The notes beneath the pieces were generated by a model. That model ran no database searches, was not told the origin of the DNA, and worked only from the letters and a program-made list of their open reading frames with translations. From Paraburkholderia sp. FT54 (GTDB lineage: Bacteria > Pseudomonadota > Gammaproteobacteria > Burkholderiales > Burkholderiaceae), in the NCBI RefSeq assembly GCF_031585635.1, contig NZ_CP134195.1:1922001-1986000 (forward strand): a stretch of 64,000 nucleotides of DNA, written 5' to 3'. Position numbers and translations under genes: made by a program. How positions within the stretch are numbered: position 1 is the first letter of the stretch; each line of letters starts with the position of its first letter. Below are positions 47,285 to 57,407 of the stretch, piece by piece.

Positions 47285-47472
47285 GAGAGATTCCTGCTTG
47301 AAATTCTGGTTGTGCGGATCGTGATCAACCGGAAAGTGGCTTACAGCTAGCCCGGAATCGGCGGCACGCCCACGAACACCGCACGGCGCCGTCGCGAATC
47401 CGCGCGGCGCAGCGAAGCGCGTCTACTCGAATATGCTGCCGCTCGTTGCCGCGCCGGCCGGCCGATCTCGGC

Positions 47473-48946: not shown

Positions 48947-49447
48947 TCAGAGCAGGAAGCCGATCGCGCTCAACGCTTCGGTCGAGTCGATCAGGCGGAT
49001 TACCTTTTGCACGATGCGCGCCTCGCCGCTACTGAAACTGATGCGATGCGTGAGGTCCGCCGCGAACAGCGTGGACTTGCCGCGCTTGTACGCGACGATG
49101 ACTTGCGCGGAATTCACCGTCACTTCATCGCTGGCGTCGCTCGTGAGCGTGAAACGCGACACGGTGCGCACGGTGCGCGCGGCGTCGCTCGCCGATGCCG
49201 AATAGCCGGACGTCATGCGTTGCACGCGTTTTTCGCGCATGCCCTGGTCGTCGTACGCGTAGTTCAGCGTGGCGGCGAAGTCGGTGGTGTCGTGATCGAT
49301 CGGCACCACGTAGAAGCCCGTCGGGTCCCACAGCGTGAGCCACTCGCGATAGTCCTTGCGGTCCAGCAGTTCGGCTTCGCGCCAGATGAGTTCGATCGCG
49401 CCGGCAAATGTCTTCTGCGAAAACAGCGTGTTCCTGTCGTCCATCAT
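48947..49447 (-). CDS. iacD: Ring-hydroxylating dioxygenase small subunit (IacD-like)
   Basis: 166-residue beta subunit of a Rieske non-heme-iron oxygenase (SnoaL-like fold): AELLDRKDYREWLTLWDPTGFYVVPIDHD and a conserved-looking IVAYKRGKSTLFAADLTHR near the end. The first of two adjacent ATGs overlaps the iacC stop (ATGA). It has a structural role in the oxygenase hexamer with IacC. The remnant at 48832-48933 starts almost at its stop codon. Confidence 0.82.
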   Translation of the reverse strand: MMDDRNTLFSQKTFAGAIELIWREAELLDRKDYREWLTLWDPTGFYVVPIDHDTTDFAATLNYAYDDQGMREKRVQRMTSGYSASASDAARTVRTVSRFTLTSDASDEVTVNSAQVIVAYKRGKSTLFAADLTHRISFSSGEARIVQKVIRLIDSTEALSAIGFLL

Positions 49448-50727
49448 GCTTGCTCCATCATCGTGCGCCATTGCGCGTACGCTTCGCGCATGCCGGTTTC
49501 GTCGGTGGCGTGGGCGGTCTTTTCGCCGTTCGGTGCCGTGCTCTCGCGATTCAAACCGCGGTTCACGAGAATCGGCAGATCGGGGCCGGCCTGCGAGCCG
49601 CGCTGCACGCGCTCCCAAGCTTCGGCGTCGTCCGGGCTGCCGAAACCGAACGGCCCCTGGAAGTGTTCGTGAATGCGCAGGCGCACGCGGTTCGCTTCTT
49701 CGGGACCGCCGTCCATGGCGAGGGCGACGTGGCGGATCTCGGTCTCGTTCGCGGAGATGGGCCGCAGCACACGGAAAAAAGCCATCGACAGCGCGAGGTT
49801 CGGAAACAGATTCAGATTGAAGCCGACGCCCATCAGCGAGCGCACGATCCGGCGCACTTCGTCCGGCGCATGGTCCCTGGCGAGCGAGGCCGCAAGTGCT
49901 TCGAAGCGTTCGGGAATCGGCGCGCCGTCATCGCGGTCGAGGTCGACGATTTCCGGCACCAGCACGGCGAGGCTATGGCCGTTGCCGAGGGAGCGGCAGA
50001 ACGCTTCGTCGCTCGTCATGAAGCTCGTGATCGCGGCGGCGGTTTCGTCGTCGATCGATTTCATCCACGACTTGTGGACCACCGGGAAATGATAGAGGTC
50101 GGTGGTGTTCTCGAGCTGGATCTTCCAGTTGCCGTTAAAGCGGAAGCGATGTTCGCCGTTGGCCTTGATCGGATAGCCCGCGCCCTGTTTCATGAACAGA
50201 TCGATCCACGGCTTCGCGCCGCCGAGGAAATCTTCGAGCGGCTCGATCTCCTGATTGAAGCTCGCGAAGATCAGTCCTTGATAAATGCCCACGCGCAGGC
50301 TGGCGAGCGGCAGTTCGGTCTTGTCGACCACGCCTTCGTAGCCGTCGCCGTATGGCAGCGCGCGCAACGCGCCGTCGAGGCCGTAGGTCCAGCTGTGATA
50401 CGGGCACGTGAAGCCTTTCGCATTGCCCTTGTGCTGTTCGCACACGGTCGCGCCGCGGTGGCGGCAGCGGTTCTGCAAGACGTTGACCGCGCCGGTCTTG
50501 TCGCGCACCACGATCACCGGCTGACGGCCGATCGTGGTGGTGCGGAAGTCGCCAGGATTCGGCAGTTCGCTTTCGTGCGCGACCCAGATCCACGTCTTGT
50601 AGAAAATGCGTTCGAGCTCCGCTTCGAAGACGGCCGGGTCGTAGTACAGCGACGGGGCCACGCGATCGGACTGGGCGCGCTGATACAGCGCGCTCGTGTC
50701 GACGGTCTGATATGAGGATTCGCTCAT
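49444..50727 (-). CDS. iacC: Ring-hydroxylating dioxygenase large subunit (IacC-like)
   Basis: 427-residue Rieske oxygenase alpha subunit. The Rieske [2Fe-2S] ligands are Cys88, His90, Cys108 and His111 (NRCRHRGA, CPYHSW). The mononuclear iron site is in ENTTDLYHFPVVHKS with its two His and a later Asp. In the IAA pathway IacC/D, with the reductase IacF, acts late and leads to catechol. The nearby catBAC genes and iacF agree with this. The 34-bp shared element lies 59-92 bp upstream of its start. Confidence 0.82.
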   Translation of the reverse strand: MSESSYQTVDTSALYQRAQSDRVAPSLYYDPAVFEAELERIFYKTWIWVAHESELPNPGDFRTTTIGRQPVIVVRDKTGAVNVLQNRCRHRGATVCEQHKGNAKGFTCPYHSWTYGLDGALRALPYGDGYEGVVDKTELPLASLRVGIYQGLIFASFNQEIEPLEDFLGGAKPWIDLFMKQGAGYPIKANGEHRFRFNGNWKIQLENTTDLYHFPVVHKSWMKSIDDETAAAITSFMTSDEAFCRSLGNGHSLAVLVPEIVDLDRDDGAPIPERFEALAASLARDHAPDEVRRIVRSLMGVGFNLNLFPNLALSMAFFRVLRPISANETEIRHVALAMDGGPEEANRVRLRIHEHFQGPFGFGSPDDAEAWERVQRGSQAGPDLPILVNRGLNRESTAPNGEKTAHATDETGMREAYAQWRTMMEQA

Positions 50728-50785
50728 GGCTCTTGCAGGTGGGGTGGTCGATGAAGCGAAGTCTGGCCGAGCCGTTGATATGCGT

Positions 50786-50819
50786 CAAATTGATCTAAAA
50801 TGAAATATAAGATCAACCG
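50786..50819. promoter_or_regulatory. 34-bp conserved operator-like element, copy 1 (iacC / LysR)
   Basis: Blocks CAAAT, GAT, AAAATG and AGATCAACCG occur in the same order and spacing as at 56450-56483; 24 of 34 positions are identical by eye. Within it TTGATCT (50790) and AGATCAA (50810) form a 7-bp dyad with 13 nt between the arms, typical for LysR binding. It lies between divergent iacC and the LysR gene and contains the first possible ATG of the latter, an argument against that ATG. Confidence 0.7.
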
Positions 50820-50832
50820 CATGGATATCTCG

Positions 50833-51753
50833 ATGAACTCGCTGGATCATGTCGACCTCAACCTGCTGCGCGTTTTTCAGGCAATTGTCGAAGAGCGCAG
50901 TCTTACTCGCGCGGGCGAGCGGCTGGCGCTCTCGCAGCCCGCCATCAGCTATTCGCTAGGGCGTTTGCGCACGCTGTTCGACGATCCGCTCTTCATTCGC
51001 ACGCGCGCCGGCATGCAGCCCACGCCGATCGCGCTGGAACTGTCGACCATCGTGTCCCGCGCGCTCGACACCGTGCGCGAAGCGCTGCGTTACGCGGAGC
51101 ATTTCGACCCGGCGGTGAGCACGCGCACGTTCCGGCTGTCGTTATCGGATGCGGGTGAATTGGCGTATCTGCCGCCGATTTGCGAGGCTTTGCACCGCGA
51201 GGCGCCGCGTGTGAGATTGCGTATCGAGCCGTTGCCGGTCGAAGAAATGGAAGACGCACTGCGCGCGAGCCGGCTCGATTTCGCCATCGGCAATCTGCCC
51301 GCGCTGACCGCGCGCACGCGGCATCAGGCGTTGTTCGAGGAGACATATGTGTGTATGACGCGTAAGCGCCACGGCTTGCCGCGCACGAAGGAGCTGAGTC
51401 TGAAGGCGTTTCTGGATGCGTCGCATGTGCAGATCACCTCGGTCGAGCACAGCCACCACGCGCTCGACGACGAATTCCGCGCGCAAGGCGTCGGGCGTCA
51501 TATCGCGCTGGAACTACCGCATTTCGTGGCGTTGCCGAGCGTTTTGGCTGTCACGGATCTGTTCGCCACGCTGCCACGGCGCCTCGCGCACATCTTCAAC
51601 CGCGACGGCGGTTTTCAGATCTATGAACTGCCCGTGACCTTGCCGATCGCGGCGGTCACAATGCATTGGCACGAGCACTTCGATCAGGACGAGGGCAACG
51701 TGTGGCTGCGCAACCTGATGGCCGATATCGTGCGGCGCTTCGACGAGAAGTGA
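50833..51753 (+). CDS. LysR regulator divergent from iacC
   Basis: 306 residues from the methionine of MNSLDHVDLNLLRVFQ, about 8 residues before the HTH, which is usual for LysR proteins. ATGs at 50800 and 50821 are also in frame; the one at 50800 falls inside the conserved 34-bp element and is therefore unlikely. HTH at about 10-65 (SLTRAGERLALSQPAISYSL), effector domain after residue 90. It probably controls iacC/iacD and iacF through the shared element. IAA-cluster regulators in pseudomonads are of the MarR type, so this differs from that arrangement. Confidence 0.78.
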   Translation: MNSLDHVDLNLLRVFQAIVEERSLTRAGERLALSQPAISYSLGRLRTLFDDPLFIRTRAGMQPTPIALELSTIVSRALDTVREALRYAEHFDPAVSTRTFRLSLSDAGELAYLPPICEALHREAPRVRLRIEPLPVEEMEDALRASRLDFAIGNLPALTARTRHQALFEETYVCMTRKRHGLPRTKELSLKAFLDASHVQITSVEHSHHALDDEFRAQGVGRHIALELPHFVALPSVLAVTDLFATLPRRLAHIFNRDGGFQIYELPVTLPIAAVTMHWHEHFDQDEGNVWLRNLMADIVRRFDEK

Positions 51754-52647: not shown

Positions 52648-52662
52648 ATACCCCTGAGGTAT
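52648..52662. promoter_or_regulatory. CatR operator ATAC-N7-GTAT
   Basis: ATACCCCTGAGGTAT is an exact match to the ATAC-N7-GTAT site described for CatM/BenM/CatR proteins. The dyad extends one base on each side (C..G). A weak promoter (TTGGAC at 52683, TATTAT at 52708) lies between it and catB. Centre about 94 bp before the catB start. Confidence 0.7.
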
Positions 52663-55383: not shown

Positions 55384-56361
55384 TTAGAGGTCCAGTACCA
55401 GAACCGGCGAAGCGGCGCGCGAGATGCAGCAGCAGATCACCTTGCCGCTCGCCCGTTCCGCCTTGCTCAGACAATGGTCGCGATGTTCGGGCGTGCCGCT
55501 CACCACGTCGACCATGCAGGTGCCGCACACACCTTCGCCGCACGACGTATCCACTTCAATGCCGATCGACGCCAGCGCCGCGACGATGGTCGTGTCCTTG
55601 TCCACGCGCACGGTCGCGCCGCTGCTCGCGATCCGCACGTCGAATGTGTCGAGCGTGGCGGATTCGGCACTTGTGGCCGAAGCCGGTTGCGCGGCGAATC
55701 GTTCGAGATGGATCGCTTCGGACGCGACAAGCGTTTCGCCGATCGCCACCACACGCTCCATGAAAGGCGCGGGCCCGCAGGTATAGAGGTGCGCGCCGTC
55801 ACGCGCCTTGGCGAGGCAATCGCCGAGCACCGCGTCGAGCCCCTCGCGCGCAACGCCGAAGTGAAGCTTGACGTAATCGCTGAACGGCGCGCGCGAGAGC
55901 AGCGGCAAAAACGCCGCGTGCTCCGCGCTGCGCGCGAAATAGTGCAACACGAAACGCTGTTGTTGCCTGAGCAGACGGTACGCCATGCTCAGGAGCGGTG
56001 TCACGCCGATACCGGCTGCGATCAGAATATGTTCTGTGGCGTCCGGCGCGAGTTGGAACAGATTGCGCGGCGCACCGATGGTCAATTCGCTGCCGACCGT
56101 GACCTCGTCATGCAGCGAACGCGAGCCGCCGCGCGACGTCGCTTCGCGCTTCACGGCGAACAGATGCGCGTCGCGCTGATCCGGGTCGCCGCACAACGAA
56201 TATTGCCGCGTGACGCCGGATGGGCCGGTGACATCGATGTGTGCGCCGGGTTCGTAGTGGTCGAACGGTTGCCCGTCCAGACGCGACACGCTGAACGAGC
56301 GCACGCCATGCGCTTCGTCGCGGACGCGGTCGACGCGCACGTTGAAGGTGGTTCTTTCCAT
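55384..56361 (-). CDS. iacF: Dioxygenase reductase, FNR-type with C-terminal [2Fe-2S] (IacF-like)
   Basis: 325-residue phthalate-dioxygenase-reductase-type protein: flavin domain (RQYSLCGDP), NAD domain (LIAAGIGVTPLLSMA and LYTCGPAPFM) and a plant-type ferredoxin end with CGEGVCGTC and a distal Cys (DHCL). It supplies electrons to IacC/IacD. Start at MERTTF; the frame is open 21 codons further. The shared 34-bp element lies about 90 bp upstream in the same orientation as at iacC, linking it to that regulon although 5 kb of cat genes intervene. Confidence 0.85.
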   Translation of the reverse strand: MERTTFNVRVDRVRDEAHGVRSFSVSRLDGQPFDHYEPGAHIDVTGPSGVTRQYSLCGDPDQRDAHLFAVKREATSRGGSRSLHDEVTVGSELTIGAPRNLFQLAPDATEHILIAAGIGVTPLLSMAYRLLRQQQRFVLHYFARSAEHAAFLPLLSRAPFSDYVKLHFGVAREGLDAVLGDCLAKARDGAHLYTCGPAPFMERVVAIGETLVASEAIHLERFAAQPASATSAESATLDTFDVRIASSGATVRVDKDTTIVAALASIGIEVDTSCGEGVCGTCMVDVVSGTPEHRDHCLSKAERASGKVICCCISRAASPVLVLDL

Positions 56362-56449
56362 GATCTTGCCGGCAAAAAAGGAGCGGACGGCGCATGCAGC
56401 GAGCCGCATGCGGTTGTGCGTCAAGGATAAGAAACCGCAATAAATCAGG

Positions 56450-56490
56450 CAAATCGATTAAAAATGGTTTGTTAGATCAACCGGGTTGAT
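56450..56490. promoter_or_regulatory. 34-bp conserved operator-like element, copy 2 (iacF), with palindrome
   Basis: 56450-56483 matches 50786-50819 with no insertion or deletion. Its right end runs into the perfect 7-1-7 palindrome ATCAACCGGGTTGAT (56476-56490), not present in copy 1. The only gene it can serve is iacF, 89 bp away on the minus strand, since the neighbouring LysR gene is transcribed towards it. Confidence 0.68.
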
Positions 56491-56522: not shown

Positions 56523-57407
56523 TCAAATCCCGGCCAGATGCCGCACCAGCGCCTTTTCGGGGCGCGGCATCGCGTTCAGGTCGCGCGTGCAGATCAGCAA
56601 TTGGCGCGCGGCCCAGCTATCGGTCAGCTCGATCGTGCGGATGCCGGGCGTGCCGCGATAGCGCTTCGCCGCCGTCGCCGGCACGATGCCCAAGCCGGCG
56701 CCTTGTTCGACCATGCAGCAGATGGCGTCGAATGTCCGCACGTGGGTGCGCAAGCGAAGCGGCTGGCCGGCCAGCAGCGCACGCTCGCCAAGGTAGGCTT
56801 GCAACGCGCTGTCCGCGCTCAGTCCGATGAATTCCCTGTCCGCCACTTCCGCCAGCGTCGTGCGGCGGCGGGCGGCGAGCGTGTCGTCGCGGCTCGTGAT
56901 CAACACCAGTTTGTCGATGGCGAAGGGGAAAGTCTGCAACGCGCCGTGATCAACCGCATCGGAAATGATGCCGATTTCAGCCGCGCCGGTCAGCACCGCC
57001 TTGACCGTTTCGCTGCTTTGACGCTCCTTCAGGTCGATCTGCACGTTGGTGTGGTCGCGCAGAAAGAGGCCGATCGCAGAAGGCAGGAACTCGGTGATGG
57101 CCGCCGTGTTGGTCCACAGCCGTATGCAGGCTTTGCGGCCTTCCTGATGCTCGCCCAGTTCGCCCTGCATTCTTTCGATTTGCCCGAGTACGAGTCGCGC
57201 GTCATGCGCGAGCGTGTCGCCGGTCGGGGTGGATTCGACGCCGCGTCGGCCGCGTTCGAGCAGCGGCATGCCGAGGGCGTCTTCCATGCCGCGTAGCCGC
57301 GCGCTCGCCGACGGCAACGACATGTTGGCGCGCGTAGCTCCGTGGGTGATGCTGCCGGTTTCGAGGACGTACAGAAAAAGGCGGAGGTCGATGAGGTCGA
57401 AGCGCAT
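56523..57407 (-). CDS. LysR-family regulator of unknown target
   Basis: 294 residues. HTH MRFDLIDLRLFLYVLETGSITHGATRANMS followed by the usual linker helix and an effector domain with KERQSSETVKAVLTGAAEIG. It is transcribed divergently from the TauE/SafE gene across 159 nt that hold a 12-bp repeat, so control of the exporter is a reasonable inference. It also lies upstream of iacF on the same strand, but with 160 nt and a separate promoter element between. Confidence 0.85.
   Translation of the reverse strand: MRFDLIDLRLFLYVLETGSITHGATRANMSLPSASARLRGMEDALGMPLLERGRRGVESTPTGDTLAHDARLVLGQIERMQGELGEHQEGRKACIRLWTNTAAITEFLPSAIGLFLRDHTNVQIDLKERQSSETVKAVLTGAAEIGIISDAVDHGALQTFPFAIDKLVLITSRDDTLAARRRTTLAEVADREFIGLSADSALQAYLGERALLAGQPLRLRTHVRTFDAICCMVEQGAGLGIVPATAAKRYRGTPGIRTIELTDSWAARQLLICTRDLNAMPRPEKALVRHLAGI

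Follow-up and report, generated by a model that had tools for sequence, protein, structure and literature searches.

The window, by which we mean the whole 64-kb stretch of DNA analysed, carries auxin-catabolism iac genes in the order iacF-catCABR-iacRCDT1BIHE, which equals the order published for P. xenovorans LB400 (PMC11676955, excerpt). Between the divergently oriented iacC and iacR, and once more upstream of iacF, lies a probable 47-bp operator composed of two LysR boxes, with the overall layout AT-N11-AT-N17-AT-N11-AT (Table 1). The iacR product harbours an N-terminal HTH_1 domain (PF00126, 1.8e-18) and a LysR_substrate domain (PF03466, 1.2e-24), and its closest solved relatives are the LysR regulators 5ae5/1utb, which we take to be DntR (E 6e-67 over residues 4-299). 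The gene is an orthologue of iacR that keeps the published Paraburkholderia gene order and is divergent from iacC; the LB400 iacR sits in locus L016 of our comparison (94% identical), and its product is a LysR-type protein 96% identical to that of P. phytofirmans PsJN (PMC11676955, excerpt). A second LysR gene is located upstream of iacF, at 56523-57407, with counterparts in 12/61 of the relatives' loci.

The sequence-only reading of this DNA had used the shared element to settle the start of the LysR gene at 50833, and the comparison of loci agreed with it, as an ATG was present at that position in 61 of 62 loci, the remaining one being masked. A more upstream start at 50800 was rejected, since it falls within the operator and is present in 7/62 loci only; it would give a protein of 317 aa in the window, which is the length listed for the LB400 IacR (PMC11676955, excerpt). 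A GGAGG motif was found within 18 bases upstream of the 50833-type start in 22 of 24 Burkholderia-group loci, and the same search gave no match in the window or in its closest relatives.

Table 1. Genes, probable operator elements and putative promoter hexamers in the window.
Feature	Position	Strand	Basis or remark
iacR, LysR-type regulator, 306 aa	50833..51753	+	HTH_1 and LysR_substrate; start by 62-locus comparison
iacC, Rieske dioxygenase large subunit, adjoins the first site	49444..50727	-	Domains; gene order as published for LB400
iacF, ferredoxin-type reductase	55384..56361	-	Fer2 and NAD_binding_1; putative partner role
Complete operator at iacC/iacR	50780..50826		Layout in 62/62 iacC sites; one of two window matches
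Box 1, ATGCGTCAAATTGAT, proximal (putative activation site)	50780..50794		Overlaps putative iacC -35; AT-N11-AT in 62/62
17-bp linker with A-tract (50798-50800)	50795..50811		AAA at those positions in 120/120 sites, the search core having asked for A there, with up to 2 mismatches
Box 2, ATCAACCGCATGGAT, distal (putative recognition site)	50812..50826		AT-N11-AT in 62/62; unused in site selection
Complete operator at iacF, identical layout	56444..56490		58/58 iacF sites; second of two window matches
iacF box 1, ATCAGGCAAATCGAT	56444..56458		Site alignment and layout scan
iacF box 2, ATCAACCGGGTTGAT	56476..56490		7-bp arms exactly complementary about one central base
Putative iacC -35, TTGACG	50783..50788	-	TTGACG in 53/62, TTGACC in 9/62; 17 bp from putative -10
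Putative iacC -10, CAGACT; putative +1 near 50753	50760..50765	-	GAGACT in 51/62; fixed distance from box 1
Putative iacF -35, TTGCCT	56447..56452	-	Begins TTG in 56/58; 17 bp from putative -10
Putative iacF -10, TATCCT; putative +1 near 56417	56424..56429	-	TAT-N-CT in 47/58; offset as for iacC -10
Possible iacR -10, TAAAAT, with TTGATA at 50775-50780, 15-bp spacer	50796..50801	+	Sequence only; weak

Architecture and conservation of the two sites

The element had originally been described as 34 bp shared by the iacC and iacF promoters without indels, and in this respect the description was borne out: positions 50786-50819 and 56450-56483 were identical at 26 of 34 places in an ungapped alignment on the same strand, a level that none of 1,000 promoter-region pairs simulated with a first-order Markov model attained (best 34-mer; mean 18.3, maximum 23). 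Its boundaries had to be redrawn, the conserved unit being the 47-bp pair of boxes; the 34 bases start within box 1 and stop halfway through box 2. The distances, which had been taken as fixed, are identical within the element and up to the putative -10 hexamers; those to the start codons differ, box 1 beginning 53 bp from the iacC ATG vs 83 bp from the iacF ATG (with the iacF start chosen at 56361). The 10-bp block AGATCAACCG could not be upheld as a conserved recognition unit, as it was found exact at its place in only 3/120 sites (2/62 iacC sites, those of the window and L014, and 1/58 iacF sites, that of the window); the letters that stay fixed are the AT at both ends of each 15-bp box. 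A half-site suspected upstream of iacB fared no better: GATCAACCG occurs in five copies in the window, the copy upstream of iacB was exact in 0/56 relatives with iacB (L016 has a near match), and window scans found no profile or two-box architecture match there.

Within its own 8.65-Mb genome the element is scarce. A pattern search allowing up to 3 mismatches returned these two places only, and a looser 18-base core, also with up to 3 mismatches, returned 30 matches, among which these two sites were the only ones with 0 or 1 mismatch. Two profiles were built from the sites of the relatives' comparison described below, R1 from 58 of the 120 sites and R2 from 32 sites of Caballeronia, Burkholderia and Trinickia, with no Paraburkholderia among them. 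R1 found the window sites with E values of 1.3e-14 and 4.3e-12, the next match being at 0.23, and R2 likewise ranked them at the top (1.9e-8 and 2.2e-5, next 0.50). The outcome that the sequence-only reading had named as a refutation, a profile occurring at many unrelated loci, was thus not seen in this genome, where only these two sites rise above the noise, and the probable LysR regulon proposed in the sequence-only reading gained the support of both profiles. The two-box layout itself matched exactly twice in the 64-kb window, vs a mean of 0.37 in 60 first-order simulations of it.

Conservation was assessed in 61 loci of Paraburkholderia, Caballeronia, Burkholderia and Trinickia, which had been fetched by means of close relatives of the divergent LysR protein. 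The conserved core was present upstream of iacC in 61/61 relatives and upstream of iacF in the 57/57 where iacF was found; in the other 4/61, the fetched DNA yielded neither iacF nor an iacF site. With the window included, 62 iacC and 58 iacF sites were thus available, defined as core matches with at most 2 mismatches that lay where expected on the + strand of their locus, and their ungapped alignment revealed AT at four fixed places in 120/120. L004, L007, L011 and L031 contained four more core matches, with 2 mismatches apiece, which were left out of this set. The right end of box 1 is inside the search core, and the left end of box 1 and the whole of box 2 are outside it; CAAAT was found in box 1 of 62/62 iacC sites, for which the search had required a similar core. 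A layout scan made without any selection of sites over the 61 relatives' loci (1,226,865 bp) gave 126 matches, corresponding to 118 iacC or iacF sites, 3 sites before iacR, 4 before catB homologues and 1 unexplained. These 126 matches were obtained with a gap of 17 and a box width of 11; in the same loci, each of the other gaps between 5 and 29 gave no more than 26 matches, and each of the other widths between 5 and 17 no more than 30. The loci are related, so neither the 120 sites nor the layout counts represent independent events; more weight falls on the agreement between distinct promoters.

In three relatives (L050, L055 and L058) iacC is 5.2 kb away from iacR; the site lies at iacC in these loci, and another one of identical layout is found before iacR. 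Four related loci (L020, L021, L022 and L060) harbour a reversed two-box copy facing a catB homologue, which would suit a control of catechol breakdown by IacR there as well. Because the 17-bp pattern itself served to find these 3 iacR and 4 catB sites, their gap does not count as independent evidence.

The window also retains, at 47339-47400 between iacT1 and iacB, what appear to be the last codons of an iacA copy. An operonic iacA is present in 55/61 relatives, and another iacA (68% identical) is located on the genome's own contig C2 beside iacT2- and iacG-like genes, with a LysR gene 41% identical to IacR behind iacT2-iacA-iacG (L129:10290-11240). A third operator before iacT2-iacA-iacG was considered and rejected, as the iacT2 promoter showed no two-box layout with a gap of 14-20 and no R1 or R2 match; the 300 bp upstream of the L129 LysR gene likewise contained no two-box site with a gap of 14-20 and no profile match.

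Putative promoters and the probable regulator

The promoter hexamers proposed in Table 1 for iacC and iacF were drawn from the comparison of loci, since a sigma-70 consensus scan reported neither of these promoters and nothing at all at iacF. Its sole match near iacC, a minus-strand candidate at 50833-50804, was rejected because its -10 would fall in the poorly conserved linker. An iacR promoter at 50796-50801 is weakly supported, and the TTGATA that might serve as its -35 is not conserved across the aligned sites. If the proposed -10 hexamers are right, the centre of box 1 would lie near -34 and that of box 2 near -66. T-N11-A is present in 120/120 copies of box 2, its placement at -66 depending on the putative -10; the -34 of box 1 is likewise counted from that hexamer, itself absent from the output of the consensus scan.

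LysR regulators usually have a T-N11-A recognition site near -65 and activation sites at -35/-10, and divergent negative autoregulation is usual among them (PMC8407307, excerpt). We consider it highly probable that each of the two sites is the operator of a LysR-type activator, and the protein binding both would most probably be the product of 50833-51753, that is, IacR, already known as a LysR-type iac regulator. An IacR tetramer would place one dimer on box 2, whose centre would be at about -66 relative to the start of iacC or iacF, and its second dimer on box 1, centred near -34, where it would cover the -35. With 32 bp from centre to centre, about three helical turns, and an A-tract between the boxes, one protein could bridge both and bend the DNA. 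An indolic intermediate, presumably dioxindole-3-acetate in strain PsJN, would then shift the proximal dimer, whereupon polymerase would start iacC(D...) and iacF; the LysR-type IacR of PsJN is said to respond to this compound, as Donoso et al. reportedly described in 2017. The first operator may in addition limit the expression of iacR, because it overlies the start region of this divergent gene.

Other regulators encoded in the cluster could in principle occupy these boxes, as LysR boxes are generic and the genes of two further LysR proteins, CatR and the product of 56523-57407, lie close to the sites. However, a CatR-type site (ATACC-CCTGA-GGTAT) is found at 52648-52662, between catR and catB, and is unlike these boxes; moreover, the fetched DNA contained neither catA nor catB in 39/61 loci and the 56523 LysR gene in just 12/61, vs an iacC site in 61/61. 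On the type of site and this patchy presence, both proteins were rejected as the general binder, and we regard such an assignment as very improbable. As for the direction of regulation, box 1 covers the putative -35 and in Enterobacter soli a MarR-type IacR acts as a repressor (PMC9613470, excerpt), so that IacR might be thought to repress here and to leave or reshape once the inducer is present. Yet box 2, placed at about -66, lies beyond the core promoter and keeps a strict distance to box 1, and the putative iacC -10 (of the GAGACT type) departs widely from consensus, as is seen in promoters that depend on an activator; repression seems to us unlikely.

It could also be argued that the similarity reflects a core promoter plus an A-tract and involves no specific regulator, given that the element is AT-rich and overlaps the putative -35 hexamers. 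This we find hardly credible, as conservation of the distal box extends past any core promoter and different promoters all keep a gap of exactly 17 bp; besides, the window LysR gene adjoining the iacF site is co-directional with iacF, so no divergent gene explains the distal half there. Very probably, then, both sites are where IacR switches on the auxin-breakdown genes, by a switch of an ordinary type.

Occurrence in other genomes and spacing in related LysR genes

A survey of 150 Burkholderiaceae genomes was carried out, in which at most 15 or 32 candidates per genome were scored, depending on the step. Among the candidates scored, 24/150 genomes had an IacR that was at least 74% identical along its length, and an R1 match was located nearby in 24/24; in 23 of them its start was between -65 and -85, counted from the first LysR residue of the protein match, and in one (G073) it was at -5226. 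R1 reported a second site in 21/24 genomes, and the layout scan revealed one in G051 and G013; G053 had no second R1 match, and a search of the 8.5 kb fetched from it did not find iacF. In G015 and G006, iacF is directly upstream of iacC and a single site precedes iacF. All 64 listed R1 matches were then joined with LysR rows down to 45% identity, and 6 of those 64 were near no entered LysR gene of at least 45% identity. An R1 match was found in 34 genomes, three of which (G019, G021 and G120; E 4.5e-4 to 6.2e-4) had no LysR protein at or above 45% identity. In seven genomes a LysR protein of 49-62% identity was present and R1 gave no match; among the five examined, the gap of the layout is 17 bp in one and 16 bp in four. 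Two-box sites were also seen about 190 bp upstream of an AraC-type-looking regulator gene in G065 (L130:4524-4570), where no LysR gene of the IacR group was found in the 9 kb fetched around the site, and, at L136:4442 and L137:14769 in two congeneric genomes, within about 1 kb of amidase-like (iacH-related) genes.

Other LysR genes, whose identity to IacR is about half to three fifths, were associated with the same half-site and a 16-bp gap; within this set of 20 genes, which partly overlaps the 30 loci considered next, two (the second copies in G133 and G140) had no site. In a sister clade of 30 loci (L150-L179, 29 usable), a gap of 16 was found upstream of the LysR gene in 27/29, 26 of them with the CAAA core and 1 without it, and the other 2 had neither; several of these loci gave matches at further gaps too, 9 of them having the core at gap 22. 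In L131, the one locus inspected, the divergent gene resembles by eye an AMP-forming acyl-CoA ligase and is followed by an iacT1-related MFS gene. A protein tree of 65 rows, which includes 24 of the 61 relatives, separated the spacing groups imperfectly, gap 17 requiring 2 changes and gap 16 requiring 4; the exceptions are LysR genes of G133 and G140, which fall inside the IacR clade with gap 16, and a reversed gap-16 site in G017. The fork uniting the sister clade was weak (80/53). Both kinds of LysR gene coexist in several genomes, such as G124, G073 and G051.

One reading of these data, which we put forward tentatively and regard as rather doubtful, is that spacing acts as a one-base-pair code on a common half-site, ATNNGTCAAATNNAT, IacR taking a gap of 17 (120/120) vs 16 in the sister clade (27/29). 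If true, a single base pair, equivalent to a rotation of about 34 degrees, would keep two coexisting paralogues from cross-regulating. A literature search covering titles and abstract openings returned nothing on one-base-pair spacing between LysR paralogues.

Relation to known systems and significance

The two sites resemble classical LysR activator operators in having two T-N11-A boxes about three turns apart, placed at what would be -66 and -34, and a divergent regulator (PMC8407307, excerpt), and differ from them in that both predicted boxes keep T-N11-A in every site. The nod box of NodD, also a LysR-type regulator, is 47 bp long as well and carries ATC-N9-GAT (PMC5596368, excerpt), a motif that box 2 fits at both window sites and box 1 at iacF too. 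The comparison covered the length, which fits, and the palindromic ends, which fit in part; the sites were not classed as nod boxes, as the adjoining genes are auxin-catabolism iac genes instead of nod genes. CatR/BenM sites share the LysR family and T-N11-A with the present ones and have a different half-site; the CatR-type consensus AkACC-N5-GGTAT (PMC6449761, excerpt), read by eye, is in neither site and present at 52648-52662, and the sites were therefore not classed as CatR operators. The MarR-type IacR/IadR operators of other auxin degraders concern the same substrate and an unrelated family of regulators (PMC9613470, excerpt).

Among the papers listed by our literature search, which covered titles and abstract openings of mostly open literature, none described an operator for the LysR-type IacR. 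None is given in the available excerpts of PMC11676955 and PMC9613470, and the words iac, indole and auxin are absent from the main text of PMC6449761, a comparative study of aromatic regulators in Betaproteobacteria.

For a regulator that has been named but little characterised, the analysis provides an exact operator, putative promoters and a target list that make LysR-controlled auxin degradation testable in Burkholderia-like bacteria, and it corrects the start of iacR. The LysR arrangement, on account of which PsJN has been called an exception (PMC9613470, excerpt), is common to 61 Burkholderiaceae loci, all of them fetched by this LysR. The spacings of 17 and 16 bp constitute a clean natural pair for asking how paralogous LysR proteins stay apart.
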